This document shows positions 13,361 to 34,708 of a DNA stretch of 37,570 bases, piece by piece. The notes under the pieces are model-generated. The model was not told the DNA's origin and did no database searches. It saw nothing but the letters and a program-made list of their open reading frames with translations. The DNA comes from Clostridiales bacterium (GTDB lineage: Bacteria > Bacillota > Clostridia > Lachnospirales > Lachnospiraceae), in assembly GCA_012518975.1 (NCBI GenBank), contig JAAYRC010000245.1, forward strand, positions 1 through 37,570, read 5' to 3'. The position numbers and the translations under genes were made by a program. Numbering within the stretch: the first letter of the stretch is position 1; each line of letters opens with the position of its first letter.

Positions 13361-13372
13361 GAACAAGTGTTT
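13361..13372. promoter_or_regulatory. LexA/Cheo-box-like site (downstream copy) GAACAAGTGTTT
   Basis: Fits core GAACRNRYGTTY; lies just downstream of the -10. Confidence 0.5.
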
Positions 13373-13391
13373 GGTTAAGAGGACGAAAGTA

Positions 13392-14912
13392 ATGATTATT
13401 CAAGAAGCTATGACAATTCAAAGGAAATTAGAGATTTTATCTGATGCAGCCAAATATGATGTAGCCTGTACTTCCAGCGGCGTTAACCGTAAGGGTAAAG
13501 ACTCAAGTATAGGCAATAGCTTGGCCAGTGGAATTTGTCATTCCTTTTCTGCTGATGGAAGATGTATTTCCCTGCTAAAAATACTTTTTACAAATGAATG
13601 TATATTTGATTGTAAGTATTGCTTTAACCGGTCATCCAATGATGTGGTCCGCGCCTCCTTTACACCTGAGGAGATATGCGAGCTTACAATAGAATTTTAT
13701 CGAAGAAACTATATTGAAGGATTGTTTCTAAGCTCTGGTATTATGGTGAGTCCAAATCACACTATGGAGCTTATTTTCCAAGCCTTGAGAATGCTTAGAG
13801 AGGATTACAATTTCAATGGATATATTCATTGCAAGACTATTCCCGGAACTGATCAAGCCTTAATAGAAGCTATTGGTTGGTATGCAGATAGGATGAGCAT
13901 TAATCTTGAGCTTCCAACAGCAAGTAGTCTAAAGAAGCTGGCACCTCATAAGAGCAGAAATAATATTCTTAAGCCCATGCGTCAAATCCAGCTTAGGAGA
14001 GATATGAATAAGGATTACTTAGGCATCTATGACAGAAGCCTGGATTCAAAGCATACAAGGGCTAATAAGATTTCCGCTAGTAATACTAAGCTTCTCCTTC
14101 CAAGTAAAGAAGATTCAAAGAATATAGATAATAGTAATCAACTTACTCATAACACTACAAACAGTAATAAGAGCTTTACCAAGGAATTAAGTCAAGCTAT
14201 GGCTTCAACCTCCACTCTTTCACCTTATTGGAAACCTCCATCTGCATCTAGTAGGTATGTGCCTGCTGGCCAAAGCACTCAGATGATTATCGGTGCAACA
14301 GAGGAAAGTGACCTTCATATTATGTCCGTATCAGAGGCCCTATATGATAATTTTGATTTGAAGCGTGTATTCTATTCTGCTTTTATGAATGTGAACCAAG
14401 ATAATTTGCTACCCTCCACAGAAAATGGTCCTCCCCTCCTGAGAGAACATCGCCTATATCAGGCCGATTGGTTACTTAGGTTTTATGGCTTTAAGACTAG
14501 AGAGCTTTTAAGTGAAAGTAAGCCCAACTTCAACATATTTTTAGATCCAAAATGTGATTGGGCTTTGAGACATTTAGAACAATTCCCTATAGAGGTTAAT
14601 AAGGCGGACTATTTTACCCTGCTTCGAGTTCCTGGAATCGGAGTAAATTCTGCTAGAAGAATTATAATGGCGCGAAAAAACTCAGCTCTTGATTTTAAGG
14701 ACTTAAAAAAGATGGGGATAGTCCTAAAAAGAGCCGTATATTTTATTACCTGTAAGGGCAAAATGCTGTATCCAGTCAAACTTAACGAAGACTTTATCAC
14801 AAGAGAACTAATAGCTGATAATAAGAAACTACCCTTTGGAATAGACAAGGATATTACCTATAAGCAACTAAGTTTTTTCGATGATGTAAGCTTTCAGATT
14901 AACAATAAATAA
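13392..14912 (+). CDS. Putative DNA modification/repair radical SAM protein (TIGR03916-like) with C-terminal helix-hairpin-helix
   Basis: CIFDCKYC radical SAM motif; LRVPGIGVNSARRIIMAR HhH; RBS AGAGGA before ATG 13392 (ORF track start 13371 is TTG within the regulatory site). Confidence 0.88.
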   Translation: MIIQEAMTIQRKLEILSDAAKYDVACTSSGVNRKGKDSSIGNSLASGICHSFSADGRCISLLKILFTNECIFDCKYCFNRSSNDVVRASFTPEEICELTIEFYRRNYIEGLFLSSGIMVSPNHTMELIFQALRMLREDYNFNGYIHCKTIPGTDQALIEAIGWYADRMSINLELPTASSLKKLAPHKSRNNILKPMRQIQLRRDMNKDYLGIYDRSLDSKHTRANKISASNTKLLLPSKEDSKNIDNSNQLTHNTTNSNKSFTKELSQAMASTSTLSPYWKPPSASSRYVPAGQSTQMIIGATEESDLHIMSVSEALYDNFDLKRVFYSAFMNVNQDNLLPSTENGPPLLREHRLYQADWLLRFYGFKTRELLSESKPNFNIFLDPKCDWALRHLEQFPIEVNKADYFTLLRVPGIGVNSARRIIMARKNSALDFKDLKKMGIVLKRAVYFITCKGKMLYPVKLNEDFITRELIADNKKLPFGIDKDITYKQLSFFDDVSFQINNK

Positions 14913-14926
14913 AGCGGGGGACAGCT

Positions 14927-15724
14927 ATGAATCTTACTAAAATTTTTGTCTGTGAAAATAGTATAGATGGAATCTTTACAGCTATTTACCAGGCTTGGAG
15001 TTCAGGATATGGACATGCTAATGTCAAGATTGAAGAAGAGTGTGAAAAAAACACTTATTCAAATATTCAATTATTTTCAGATTATATTCATGTAAAGACA
15101 AACATAGAACAAGCCTTAATGGTCTCACGTTCAATCAAAACAAAGATATCTCTCCAGGTCTACGAGATGGTTTGCCGGGTAGCCTTATCTAACTACCAAG
15201 GCAAGGGGGACTTAATTTATAGATTTTTAGTATTAGGCTTTCATATAGGTAAAGATATTATCGGTCACTTAAGTAATGAGATTGTAAACAAGATATTTAA
15301 GATAAATAGATATGTGAACAATGAGGTTCACCATCTTCTAGGCTTTATTCGTTTTACTGAGCAGGATAATGGAGTTCTGGCTTCAATTATTCATCCTAAG
15401 AATAATATCCTATCTCTTGTTACTCCCCATTTTGTTGATAGGCTTCCAAAAGAAAAATTTATTATTTTAGATGGGGATAGAGGTCTATGTAGTATTTACA
15501 TACCTAAAAAACCATGGGTTCTAGCTGAAGTTCCTGTAATGGATTCATATTCTTATGATAAAGATATAGCTAATGGTGATGATGAATATCAGGATTTGTG
15601 GAAGATATTCTTTGACAGCATCGCTATTAAGGAAAGGATTAATCCAAAGCTTCAAAGAAATAACCTCCCTATACGTTTTAGGAGGGATATGACAGAATTT
15701 TTTATAACAGATAAAAACTCTTAA
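14927..15724 (+). CDS. TIGR03915/DUF4130-family putative DNA repair protein
   Basis: Pattern FVCENSIDGIFTAIYQAW... VEVNNEVHHLLGFIRF-like region ... FFDSIAIKERINPKLQRNNLPIRFRRDMTEF; immediately downstream of the radical SAM gene. Confidence 0.85.
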   Translation: MNLTKIFVCENSIDGIFTAIYQAWSSGYGHANVKIEEECEKNTYSNIQLFSDYIHVKTNIEQALMVSRSIKTKISLQVYEMVCRVALSNYQGKGDLIYRFLVLGFHIGKDIIGHLSNEIVNKIFKINRYVNNEVHHLLGFIRFTEQDNGVLASIIHPKNNILSLVTPHFVDRLPKEKFIILDGDRGLCSIYIPKKPWVLAEVPVMDSYSYDKDIANGDDEYQDLWKIFFDSIAIKERINPKLQRNNLPIRFRRDMTEFFITDKNS

Positions 15725-15833: not shown

Positions 15834-16184
15834 ATGAAAAAGAAATTAAGCATATTCATAGCTTTATGCTGTGTAATTATGTTTACCTTCATAGCATGTG
15901 GCAATGAAGGTGACACCAATAATCCTGGTAAGGATAATACAATTGGCACTAATGATAATAATGATGATAACACAGGTGATACTACTAATGGCACCACTAA
16001 TGGCACTACTAATGACACTACTGGTGGTACTGGAGGTAATACAGAAGACATTACTGGTGGTGATATAGGTGATACAGGAAATACGGGTGGAATGACTGGT
16101 GATGATACTGGTACTACTGGCGGAACAACAGGGGGCAATACCGGTGGAACAACGGGTGGTACTACTCCAACAAATACACCCTAG
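15834..16184 (+). CDS. Small lipoprotein with Thr/Gly/Asn/Asp-rich low-complexity repeat tail
   Basis: Signal peptide with lipobox FIACG; repeats of TNGTT/TGGTT; AGGAGG RBS. Confidence 0.75.
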   Translation: MKKKLSIFIALCCVIMFTFIACGNEGDTNNPGKDNTIGTNDNNDDNTGDTTNGTTNGTTNDTTGGTGGNTEDITGGDIGDTGNTGGMTGDDTGTTGGTTGGNTGGTTGGTTPTNTP

Positions 16185-31084: not shown

Positions 31085-31957
31085 ATGATGAGAGATTTTG
31101 TTATTACTGCTGATTCAAACTCAGATTTACTAGAGAAATATATAAAAGAGAAAAATATTGGAATCATTCCACACTACTATGACATAGATGGGGTAACTTA
31201 TGGTGACGAAATAAACCTAACACCAAAGGAGTTTTATGACAAGATGAGAGGAGGCAAAATGCCTACTACCATGGCCAGCAATCCCGAGGTGATTAGAGAA
31301 ACCTTTCAAAATTACATAGATAAAGGCCTTGATATCCTACATATAAGCTTTTCCTCAGCCCTAAGTGGCGGTTGCAGTAACGTAATGGCAGGTGCAAGAG
31401 ATCTCTGTGAGGAAAACCCTGATGCTAAAATAATTGTAGTAGATACCCTCAACGCCTCTCTTGGCGAAGGAATGTTTGTGATGAAGGCAGTTATGATGAA
31501 GGAAGAAGGTAAAACCATAGACGAAATCGCCTCATGGCTAGAAGACCATAAGATGGAGTTTTGTGTTCGTTTTACAGTTGACGACCTTAACCATCTTCAA
31601 AGAGGTGGAAGAATATCGAAAACCACTGCTTTAATTGGATCTATTATGAACGTAAAGCCACTACTATATATTAATGAAGAAGGTCAATTAGTACCCTTGG
31701 CTAGCTCAAGGGGTAGAAAGAAATCCCTTGTCACTATTTGCAACAACATGATAGAAAGCATGGGAAAATATAAGGATGAAGAGGATTATGTCTGTATTGC
31801 CCATGGCGATGCAATAGATGATGCAAATTATCTTGCTAAACTAGTAAAAGACGCACTTCCCCATAAGCAAATAATTATTAATACAATAAGCCCTAGTATT
31901 GGGTCTCATTCAGGACCTGGGGCTATTGGTCTTTGCTTTATGGGAGAAAAACGCTAG
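31085..31957 (+). CDS. DegV family protein (fatty-acid-binding, FakB-like)
   Basis: ITADSNSDL..., TTMASNPE, SFSSALSGGCSN, DDLNHLQRGGRISKT, HSGPGAIGL. GGGGG RBS. Confidence 0.93.
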   Translation: MMRDFVITADSNSDLLEKYIKEKNIGIIPHYYDIDGVTYGDEINLTPKEFYDKMRGGKMPTTMASNPEVIRETFQNYIDKGLDILHISFSSALSGGCSNVMAGARDLCEENPDAKIIVVDTLNASLGEGMFVMKAVMMKEEGKTIDEIASWLEDHKMEFCVRFTVDDLNHLQRGGRISKTTALIGSIMNVKPLLYINEEGQLVPLASSRGRKKSLVTICNNMIESMGKYKDEEDYVCIAHGDAIDDANYLAKLVKDALPHKQIIINTISPSIGSHSGPGAIGLCFMGEKR

Positions 31958-32018
31958 TAACCTATAAGCTACAATGTAAAGAATTATGAAGAAACATTAC
32001 TAAAAATTAGGATTTTAA

Positions 32019-32045
32019 AAGGACTTTCCATATTGGAAGGTCCTT
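32019..32045 (-). terminator. Terminator for tRNA-Thr
   Basis: AAGGAC-TTTCC/GGAA-GTCCTT hairpin; minus strand is followed by TTTT. Confidence 0.65.
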
Positions 32046-32069
32046 CTGAGTTATAAGGCTTTTCTTAAC

Positions 32070-32142
32070 AGCTCCCCATGGGACTCGAACCCACGACCTA
32101 CGCATTACGAGTGCGTTGCTCTACCAACTGGGCTAGGGAAGC
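32070..32142 (-). tRNA. tRNA-Thr (anticodon CGU)
   Basis: Minus strand GCTTCCCTAGCCCAGTTGGTAGAGCAACGCACTCGTAATGCGTAGGTCGTGGGTTCGAGTCCCATGGGGAGC; cloverleaf closes, loop CT-CGT-AA; CCA not encoded. Confidence 0.95.
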
Positions 32143-32231
32143 ATTATAAAAATTTTAATACAATAATTCTACAATTTCAAGTAAATATTCTAACAAATAA
32201 ACATATGCTCTCTCTTCTTATAATAAAAAAA

Positions 32232-32268
32232 CATGGCTATTGGGTTTTTCTTAACCCTATTAACCATA
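32232..32268 (-). terminator. Terminator of the second degV-like gene
   Basis: ATGG..ATAGGGTT/AACCC..AT..CCAT hairpin followed on minus by TTTTTTT. Confidence 0.75.
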
Positions 32269-32349
32269 GTTTTTCTGTGTTTTACTAGAACTTTATTTTG
32301 TTAAAATTTGATATATTAAAAAGTTGATTTTGAAAAGATAATTCATGTC

Positions 32350-33183
32350 TTAATAAGCCACTATTATTCCGCCTTCATTAGCATACATGGTGCTTACCCC
32401 TGCCGTATCTACAATAAAGCAATCCTTAAAGGGAACTAATTTTAGAATCTCTTCCTTAAAAAACTGTGCCCTTTCTAAGCAATTACAATGGGCGATACCT
32501 AATATCCTTTCCTTAGGTCTTATTACATCTCGTTCAATAGTTTTAGCCATAGCAATTAATGCCTTTTTAATCCCTCTAGCCTGATCTATTTTAGTTATTG
32601 TTCCTTCTGGAGTAGCTCCCATGATAGGCTTGATATTCAAGACATTGGCAACTAAAGCCTTGATGTTACTTAACCTACCACTCTTTTTCAAATTATCTAG
32701 GCTCTCTAGAACGAACTTAGTCTTCATATCAGACCTAAATGCATTAACCTTCTCAACAATACTTCTAAATGAATATCCTTCACTAATAAGTTCCTTTATC
32801 TTCATAACTATCAAGGTCTGTCCTACAGAAGCACTGCGGGAATTAATTACTTCTATGTCTTTCTTGTTTTCCTCAAGATATAATCTCTTTGCTAATTCAG
32901 CACTATTATAGGAACCACTTAATTCTGCAGATATTGTAACTGCAAAAACATTGTCTCCACCATTAAACTCCTTCAAATAATCATCAGGCGAAGGACATGC
33001 TGATTTTGGGCTACTAGGGCTAGCCTTCATAGTCTGTAAGAATTTTTTTTGGTCAAATTCTTGATTATCCATATAAACAAGATCACCTACCATTAGTGTC
33101 AATGGAACAACCTTAATGGCTGGATCTTCTTTAAGTATTTTAGGAAGATCTGTGCAACTATCTACTACAATTTTATATTCCAT
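32350..33183 (-). CDS. DegV family protein (fatty-acid-binding, FakB-like)
   Basis: VVDSCTDLPK, SAELSGSYNSAELA, LESLDNLKKSGRLSNIKA. Confidence 0.92.
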   Translation of the reverse strand: MEYKIVVDSCTDLPKILKEDPAIKVVPLTLMVGDLVYMDNQEFDQKKFLQTMKASPSSPKSACPSPDDYLKEFNGGDNVFAVTISAELSGSYNSAELAKRLYLEENKKDIEVINSRSASVGQTLIVMKIKELISEGYSFRSIVEKVNAFRSDMKTKFVLESLDNLKKSGRLSNIKALVANVLNIKPIMGATPEGTITKIDQARGIKKALIAMAKTIERDVIRPKERILGIAHCNCLERAQFFKEEILKLVPFKDCFIVDTAGVSTMYANEGGIIVAY

Positions 33184-33419: not shown

Positions 33420-33448
33420 TTGACATTCATTTCTTACTCTATCATAAT
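33420..33448 (+). promoter_or_regulatory. Promoter TTGACA-N17-CATAAT for the EF-Tu/L7-L12-like lipoprotein gene
   Basis: TTGACA 33420-33425; CATAAT 33443-33448. Confidence 0.7.
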
Positions 33449-33490
33449 CATGTTATTATTTGACATTATGTGCAAACGAAAGGATAGATT

Positions 33491-34630
33491 ATGATTAAAA
33501 AAACATTACAAATAATACTTCTAAGCTTGACTATTATTTCTTTAGTAGCTTGTAAACATAAGGATGACGAAAACACTTATGAAATAGAGTCTAAAATCAA
33601 GGATTCTAAAACAAACTATGAATGGGAAGAAAATGATAACGATAAGAGTGAGATTCAAGATAAGAACATCCCAGAAAATGCTGCAGAAGAAATCCAGTCA
33701 GAAGCAATTGAATTATCTGACTCACAAGTCAAGGATAATAATATAATCGAGGATGATAATATGACCGAGGATAATCTTCCCAAAGTGCTGATAACTGATG
33801 ACTTTGTAATGAAGGTTAGCAAAATCTATGAAACTCCTGGAGAAGGCATTGCCGCTGAAGGAGAAGTTTTATCAGGGTCTGCCTCTATCGGTGCCGAGAT
33901 TGAGATTTTAAGCCGTAATAATGGGTTGATTCCAGCACAGATAACTTCAATAAGAGTAAAGGGCGATCTGGTTGACAATATTTCAGTCGGTGATTATGGT
34001 TTTGTAGCCTTACCAAATCTGGAGGGTAAGGATTTGGACGTAGGTGAGTGCCTTGTAACCAAGGGGCTTTATATGACATATAATTCTTTTCTTGCTAAGA
34101 TGAAATTTATAGAAGAAAAAGAAGATTCCTTCTACAATGAAATCCTAAAATCTCGTTCTTATATTCTTGTTACAGATACATACTGTAATATTACTTTTGA
34201 TAAAAGCAGCTTAGATGACAATGGTTACATAATGGCAACTTTCGAATTAATAACACCTCTATATATGAGTATTGGGACAGAATTTGAACTTCGAGAAGGT
34301 TTTGATCCTATTGCTTATGGGGAGGTTATCTCTTTCGATCTATCGTCATTCTCTGTAGAAACCAGCATAGAAGAAAATGATTCGGAAACCATGGATTCAA
34401 GCGATAACGATGAAGGCACCGGCATAAGGATAAAATTAATTGATAGCGGATCACTTAAGATACAGGTTATAAAGGAGATACGAGATATATTTGGTTTAGG
34501 CTTAAAGGAAGCTAAAGATATAACAGATAATGTACCTTATGAATTCACTGAAATACTTACAATGGAAGAAGCAATTGAAATAAAAACAAGGTTAGAGGAA
34601 TATAATGCTATTGTTGAAATTATTGACTAG
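33491..34630 (+). CDS. Predicted lipoprotein: EF-Tu domain 2-like + EF-Tu domain 3-like (no GTPase domain) + ribosomal protein L7/L12 C-terminal domain
   Basis: Lipobox SLVAC (Cys21); acidic linker; DFVMKVSKIYETPGEGIAAEGEVLSGSASIGAEIEIL (domain 2-like); FELITPLYMSIGTEFELREGFDPIAYGEVISF (domain 3-like); IRIKLIDSGSLKIQVIKEIRDIFGLGLKEAKDITDNVPYEFTEILTMEEAIEIKTRLEEYNAIVEI (L7/L12 CTD). Confidence 0.8.
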   Translation: MIKKTLQIILLSLTIISLVACKHKDDENTYEIESKIKDSKTNYEWEENDNDKSEIQDKNIPENAAEEIQSEAIELSDSQVKDNNIIEDDNMTEDNLPKVLITDDFVMKVSKIYETPGEGIAAEGEVLSGSASIGAEIEILSRNNGLIPAQITSIRVKGDLVDNISVGDYGFVALPNLEGKDLDVGECLVTKGLYMTYNSFLAKMKFIEEKEDSFYNEILKSRSYILVTDTYCNITFDKSSLDDNGYIMATFELITPLYMSIGTEFELREGFDPIAYGEVISFDLSSFSVETSIEENDSETMDSSDNDEGTGIRIKLIDSGSLKIQVIKEIRDIFGLGLKEAKDITDNVPYEFTEILTMEEAIEIKTRLEEYNAIVEIID

Positions 34631-34661: not shown

Positions 34662-34708
34662 AATATAAGCTATTCCATATTAACTTCATCTATGGAATAG
34701 CTTATATT
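34662..34708. terminator. 18-bp perfect hairpin between convergent genes, probable bidirectional terminator
   Basis: AATATAAGCTATTCCATA / TATGGAATAGCTTATATT, 11-nt loop. Confidence 0.75.

Follow-up and report, generated by a model that had tools for sequence, protein, structure and literature searches.

The window, by which we mean the whole stretch of 37,570 nucleotides that was analysed, contains a gene for a predicted lipoprotein built from parts of two translation proteins: domains 2 and 3 of EF-Tu, lacking the G domain, and the C-terminal domain (CTD) of ribosomal protein bL12 (L7/L12). The parts are known, but their combination and its location appear to be new. The protein belongs to a real and conserved family which is apparently undescribed in the open-access literature, where we found no description of this architecture. 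Translation-factor domains are usually treated as tied to protein synthesis in the cytoplasm; here they appear, from the signals in the gene, to be rebuilt into an exported, lipid-anchored protein. The reading which we favour, with a probability of about 0.55, is that of a lipid-anchored extracytoplasmic binding protein, in which the bL12 head would bind a partner in trans and the two EF-Tu barrels would act as a spacer or adhesive module.

The gene and its product

The features of the gene, in the order in which they occur, are:

33420..33448, + strand: promoter-like site TTGACA-17-CATAAT, 42 bases 5' of the start codon (a consensus match only)
33478..33484, + strand: ribosome-binding site GAAAGGA, 6 bases 5' of the ATG (read from the sequence)
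33491..34630, + strand: whole gene, 379 aa, lipoprotein with EF-Tu domains 2 and 3 and bL12 CTD
33491..33553, + strand: predicted lipoprotein signal peptide, MIKKTLQIILLSLTIISLVA followed by Cys21 (codon 33551-33553); the lipobox Cys has the same position in six relatives
33554..33799, + strand: acidic disordered linker, aa 22-103, net charge about -17, pLDDT below 50
33800..34060, + strand: EF-Tu domain 2 barrel, aa ~104-190 (NCBIfam, PDB, AlphaFold/Foldseek and residue scoring)
34076..34339, + strand: EF-Tu domain 3 barrel, aa ~196-283, shortened at the R318-H319 loop and at the 344-346 turn
34340..34423, + strand: second acidic linker, aa ~284-311 (AlphaFold model and charge count)
34424..34627, + strand: bL12 (L7/L12) CTD, aa ~312-379 (Pfam), GTPase-binding face kept
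34662..34708, no strand assigned: perfect 18-bp inverted repeat with an 11-base loop (read from the sequence)

The gene looks like a single-gene unit, since a promoter-like site and a ribosome-binding site of its own lie before it and since the inverted repeat precedes the convergent htpG; the repeat is probably a bidirectional terminator between the two genes. A misplaced start for the 379-aa ORF was rejected because the ribosome-binding site and the promoter-like site lie directly upstream and fit the lipoprotein start. An assembly chimera or a frameshift was also rejected, because the parts occur in the same order in seven other genomes, giving eight genomes of identical architecture of which one is complete. 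Directly upstream of the gene there are two convergent DegV-type genes (31085-33183, by eye). Elsewhere in the window we noted a small lipoprotein (15834-16184, + strand; FIACGNEGD...) which consists of Asn/Asp/Gly/Thr repeats and is without a Pfam match, and a stretch (13371-15724, + strand) with a radical SAM/HhH protein and, behind it, a DUF4130 protein; the radical SAM protein has an apparent low-complexity Ser/Asn-rich stretch in its middle.

The N-terminus of the protein, MIKKTLQIILLSLTIISLVAC, has the composition of a bacterial lipoprotein signal, with a basic n-region (MIKK), a hydrophobic core and a lipobox LVAC ending in Cys21, from which lipidation is predicted. The stretch aa 97-280 matches the NCBIfam model of EF-Tu at 2e-13, over domains 2 and 3 together, and a sequence search of PDB finds EF-Tu at 3e-10. 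The EF-Tu of the same genome matches the window protein at 3e-12 with 26% identity; its tuf is a separate gene (G000:C186), as is rplL, both being on other contigs. Taken alone the Pfam model GTP_EFTU_D2 is weak in the window copy (E 0.066, which misses the cut-off) and strong in relatives (to 7.8e-15). The Pfam model of domain 3 is weak, with E 0.004 in one of the eight members; the domain 3 barrel is supported by an alignment which runs through EF-Tu residue ~389 and by Foldseek. For the G domain no GTP_EFTU match was found with Pfam in the window protein, in which aa 22-103 are the low-complexity acidic linker. The bL12 CTD is found by Pfam at aa 314-377 with E 2.2e-15 (57 bits, the cut-off being 26) and makes up the C-terminal 66 residues. 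The N-terminal dimerisation/bL10-binding domain and the hinge of bL12 are absent from the window protein, and the EF-Tu barrels stand in their place.

The AlphaFold2 model, for which the input was a three-sequence alignment of the window protein and two relatives, consists of two beta-barrels and an alpha/beta CTD with disordered linkers. The pLDDT is mostly 70-88 in the barrels and 82-92 in the CTD; the low mean of 64 and the pTM of 0.39 are due to the disordered linkers. The best matches of the model to PDB by Foldseek are EF-Tu structures (1.4e-13), and a relative (L064) treated with AlphaFold and Foldseek gives the same fold, with EF-Tu at 2.7e-15. The rmsd to EF-Tu over both barrels is 7-8 Angstrom, so that the match bears on each barrel taken singly and says little on their mutual orientation. 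A profile of the eight family members finds EF-Tu at 6.6e-44 and bL12 at 7e-20 in PDB. The anatomy given in the original prediction, i.e., signal peptide, lipobox, GTPase-less EF-Tu domains 2 and 3 and a bL12 CTD with a basic factor-binding face, was thus borne out in all its parts. Two findings had been named that would speak against it. One was a missing EF-Tu or L7/L12 match, and the searches returned EF-Tu (Foldseek, 1.4e-13) and L12 (Pfam, 2.2e-15); the other was an N-terminus without signal peptide or with a misplaced start, and there we found the LVAC lipobox, the ribosome-binding site and the promoter-like site.

Distribution, descent and membrane side of the family

A first scan of genome contigs with the window protein gave no match. 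As the original prediction had proposed, the same architecture was sought in other Clostridia, and seven further members in three families were found. Three are congeners, the genus being taken as Herbinix, with 40% (G021), 35% (G018) and 34% (G007) identity to the window copy, the last one being from a complete genome which is taken to be that of Herbinix luporum. The other four belong to two further families of Clostridia. Of these, G972, G855 and G890 came from a search of the whole class (1e-75 to 1e-87) and G1130 from one of family f31. Among 397 genomes of the window's own family, 392 of the order and 300 of the phylum only EF-Tus were found elsewhere. The gene is rare and sporadic, as it is carried by 4 of 34 genomes in the genus and 3 of 32 in f31; in the order of G855 that genome is the sole carrier among 58. 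A Paenibacillus match over query residues 125-377 (L095) turned out to be neighbouring rplJ and rplL and not a fusion. An origin from a mobile element or phage was rejected, there being no full-length match in plasmids, phages or viral contigs, and no gene neighbourhood is conserved among the members.

We regard common descent of the eight members as shown by their sequences. They have in common several features which are not those of EF-Tu: P295K, G384A, D354 changed to Gly, and losses around 316-318 and 344-346. A tree of domains 2-3 places the four Herbinix copies together and apart from EF-Tu (100/100). The branch from the family to EF-Tu in this tree is about 10 changes per column, with long-branch warnings, and it is too long for the tree to assign the EF-Tu from which the family came. 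In an RpoB tree the four Herbinix carriers did not come out as one clade. The gene evolves fast, as the barrels of the four Herbinix lipoproteins are 29-54% identical to one another, whereas the RpoB proteins of the same four carriers share 85-94% identity with the one of their nearest congener.

An arms race would be in keeping with such rapid divergence and with the patchy occurrence. A model of this kind postulates that the protein is an extracellular decoy or sponge for toxins or antibiotics directed against EF-Tu, such as contact-dependent tRNase toxins, thiopeptides and elfamycins, some of which contact domains 2/3 (5i4q, 7vmc and 1d8t are among the structural matches). However, most of these ligands depend on the G domain as well or have their action in the cytoplasm, and bL12 is not known as a target of such toxins or antibiotics. 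None of the members has a toxin or immunity gene next to it, and PADLOC, which looks for anti-phage defence, gave no match in any of the eight. We consider the decoy most improbable.

A lipoprotein-type signal peptide with Cys21 is present in seven of the eight members, despite identities of about 40% or less to the window copy; in G855 the lipobox is an atypical PTAC. The barrels of these seven proteins are acidic (net -9 to -18) and their spacers are mostly acidic or Pro/Thr-rich. The exception is G890 (L210:7027-8160, - strand), which starts with MEYLILLLFLVAVMSFLVICIEKYNLAKERR and has a ribosome-binding site directly 5' of its ATG. It has an N-terminal TM segment with 0 basic residues before it and four within the 15 residues that follow. 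The positive-inside rule puts the domains of this protein probably on the cytoplasmic side; these domains are neutral to basic, with near neutral barrels (+2). The surface location put forward in the original prediction therefore agrees with seven members and may not hold for the whole family, given a TM-anchored G890 that probably faces inward. One could turn this around and hypothesize that the inner membrane face is the ancestral and true site, with a tethered docking protein for translation factors from which the lipoprotein members are a diverged branch. The topology and the charge of G890 would agree with this. It is, however, one member of eight and it has lost K70 of the binding face, and all the others, including the most EF-Tu-like one (G1130), have lipoprotein signals, which makes this hypothesis very improbable.

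Contact residues kept and lost

Residues are numbered on the E. coli EF-Tu and bL12 sequences, the length and the anchor residues of EF-Tu having been checked. The T-stem and CCA-end contacts of the tRNA are those of EF-Tu-tRNA structures. As reference we used the domain 2-3 columns which are at least 90% conserved in EF-Tu, and 37% of their cells are retained across the family. Retention of the T-stem contacts in domain 3 is 0.19: R318-H319 sit in the shortened loop, and there is mostly another residue in place of Q329, T338 and E378. The CCA-end pocket of domain 2 is retained at 63%, against 0.37 for the average domain 2-3 column; its N273 survives in G1130 alone. The window copy has kept 1 of the 13 best-conserved residues of this pocket and lost 12. 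With the T-stem contacts lost and nearly the whole CCA pocket changed in the window copy, binding of aminoacyl-tRNA is a most unlikely function of this protein. The suggestion that domains 2/3 might still bind a tRNA-like nucleic acid finds no support in a window copy with 12 of the 13 pocket residues gone. The more general idea of a role outside elongation has two points in its favour, the export signal and the lost T-stem contacts.

The higher retention of the domain 2 pocket (0.63 vs 0.37) would be in favour of a model in which the barrels are the business end and the bL12 domain an accessory. The protein would then correspond to the moonlighting EF-Tu adhesin, in a form dedicated to this role and competent for export, and would bind polymers or other cells. 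EF-Tu is a common surface adhesin (PMC6604927) and is abundant in clostridial biofilm (PMC6245871), and the signal peptide found here is a real one, without counterpart in moonlighting EF-Tu. Against this model, most of the pocket is lost in the window copy, and the domain 2-3 part is less conserved between members (27-53% identity) than the CTD (35-56%). Host-matrix ligands are unlikely as well, because the source of the Herbinix luporum isolate is a biogas plant (PMC4956452). On balance we find the adhesin unlikely.

The bL12 head has a different history. As the binding site we took K65, K70, R73 and K84, a choice based on the mutational literature. The equivalents of K65, I69, K70, R73 and K84 in the window copy are K323, I327, K328, R331 and K342. 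Across the eight members K65, I69 and K84 are kept in all, and K70 and R73 in seven each (it is G890 that has lost K70). For comparison we used 13 charged positions of rplL, each at least 94% conserved. Retention is 30 of 32 cells at the four face positions and 37 of 72 at the others, which are often lost (K81 is kept in 4/8, K95 in 3/8, K100 in 2/8 and K120 in 0/8). The four face positions are thus the top four of the 13 in retention, an outcome expected 1 time in 715 by a permutation of positions which treats these as independent. We infer that the face is used for binding; its residues could also have an unnoticed structural role.

The bL12 CTD is found in other non-ribosomal proteins. In Lachnospiraceae there is a recurrent type with an N-terminal bL12 CTD, a long acidic disordered region and a C-terminal zinc ribbon (L157, L159, L160). 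Two-TM proteins (L161, L163) end in a truncated bL12-like motif, AI..LRDITG.GLAEAK.I.DNW, which is the helix 4/5 part alone. G031, of the same genus as the window, has a protein (L153:3954-4973) with a signal peptide, a Big_5 Ig-like domain, an acidic linker and a bL12 CTD with intact GTPase-binding face; by its architecture this is a second, independent export of the bL12 domain, unrelated to the EF-Tu fusion.

These proteins help in judging the face. The CTDs of three zinc-ribbon proteins, which are without export signal, have lost K65, K70, R73 and K84 altogether, so the bL12 fold does not need the four residues. Truncated membrane-anchored domains (L161, L165) keep K70, R73 and K84 (by eye), so retention of the face is not unique to exported proteins. 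It might be argued that the family is a near-neutral chimera in which the domains are just stable modules and the conserved face is left over from ancestry. Fast evolution and the sporadic occurrence (4/34, 3/32 and 1/58 genomes) would be expected from this. The frames are intact, though, the three parts are always in the same order and the face is selectively retained after divergence to 26-40% identity, which argues for selection and makes such a chimera improbable.

Proposed function and known systems

The reading as a binding protein hypothesizes that domains 2 and 3 of EF-Tu, having lost the G domain, were fused to the bL12 CTD and that an export signal came to stand in front of both. With the acidic linker and the two barrels in between, the bL12 domain would be kept off the membrane, the barrels being a spacer or an adhesive module. 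Helices 4/5 are the part of bL12 which binds the G domains of IF2, EF-Tu, EF-G and RF3 (PMC6753160). As the fused EF-Tu part has no G domain, it offers this face no ordinary binding partner in cis, and for this reason we read the protein as a tethered arm whose head would use the basic/hydrophobic face of helices 4 and 5 to bind a partner in trans. Among candidate ligands the most specific, albeit an unproven one, is a translation GTPase exposed at the surface; that the protein captures surface-exposed or released EF-Tu or EF-G, either on the cell or within the matrix, is a guess which we think unlikely to hold. Alternatively, an acidic polymer or some other protein could be what the basic patch holds. 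In biofilm of Clostridium acetobutylicum EF-Tu ranks ninth and L7/L12 eighteenth by abundance among the extracellular proteins (PMC6245871), and how moonlighting EF-Tu and similar proteins are attached to the surface is unknown in most cases (PMC6604927). A dedicated lipid-anchored receptor, which captures exposed or released EF-Tu and EF-G by a stalk interface moved outside the cell, is an unlikely identity for the family; if true, it would be one answer to how anchorless moonlighting EF-Tu stays at the bacterial surface.

Should the face still bind translation GTPases, the question of how EF-Tu and its like are held on bacterial surfaces becomes testable; should it bind something else, this would be a clear case of a ribosomal interaction surface in new use. 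For annotation there is a warning, as such genes can be misnamed as fragments of EF-Tu or L7/L12.

Compared to EF-Tu, the tuf product, the family is homologous over the whole length of domains 2 and 3. It differs in having no G domain, in its predicted export (with one exception), in the lost T-stem contacts, in two deletions in domain 3 and in the fused bL12 CTD. Compared to bL12, the CTD with its intact GTPase-binding face is alike, whereas the window protein lacks the N-terminal dimerisation/bL10-binding domain and carries the CTD on barrels and a predicted lipid anchor. The non-ribosomal bL12-CTD proteins of Lachnospiraceae (L157, L159-L164) and the G031 protein (L153) share the reuse of the CTD in other architectures; none of them has EF-Tu barrels, and those with a zinc ribbon have lost the basic face. 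With moonlighting surface EF-Tu (PMC6604927, PMC6245871) the window protein would share the presence of EF-Tu modules outside the cell. Moonlighting EF-Tu, however, is a cytoplasmic enzyme without a signal peptide, whereas the window protein is the product of a separate gene with its own export signal.
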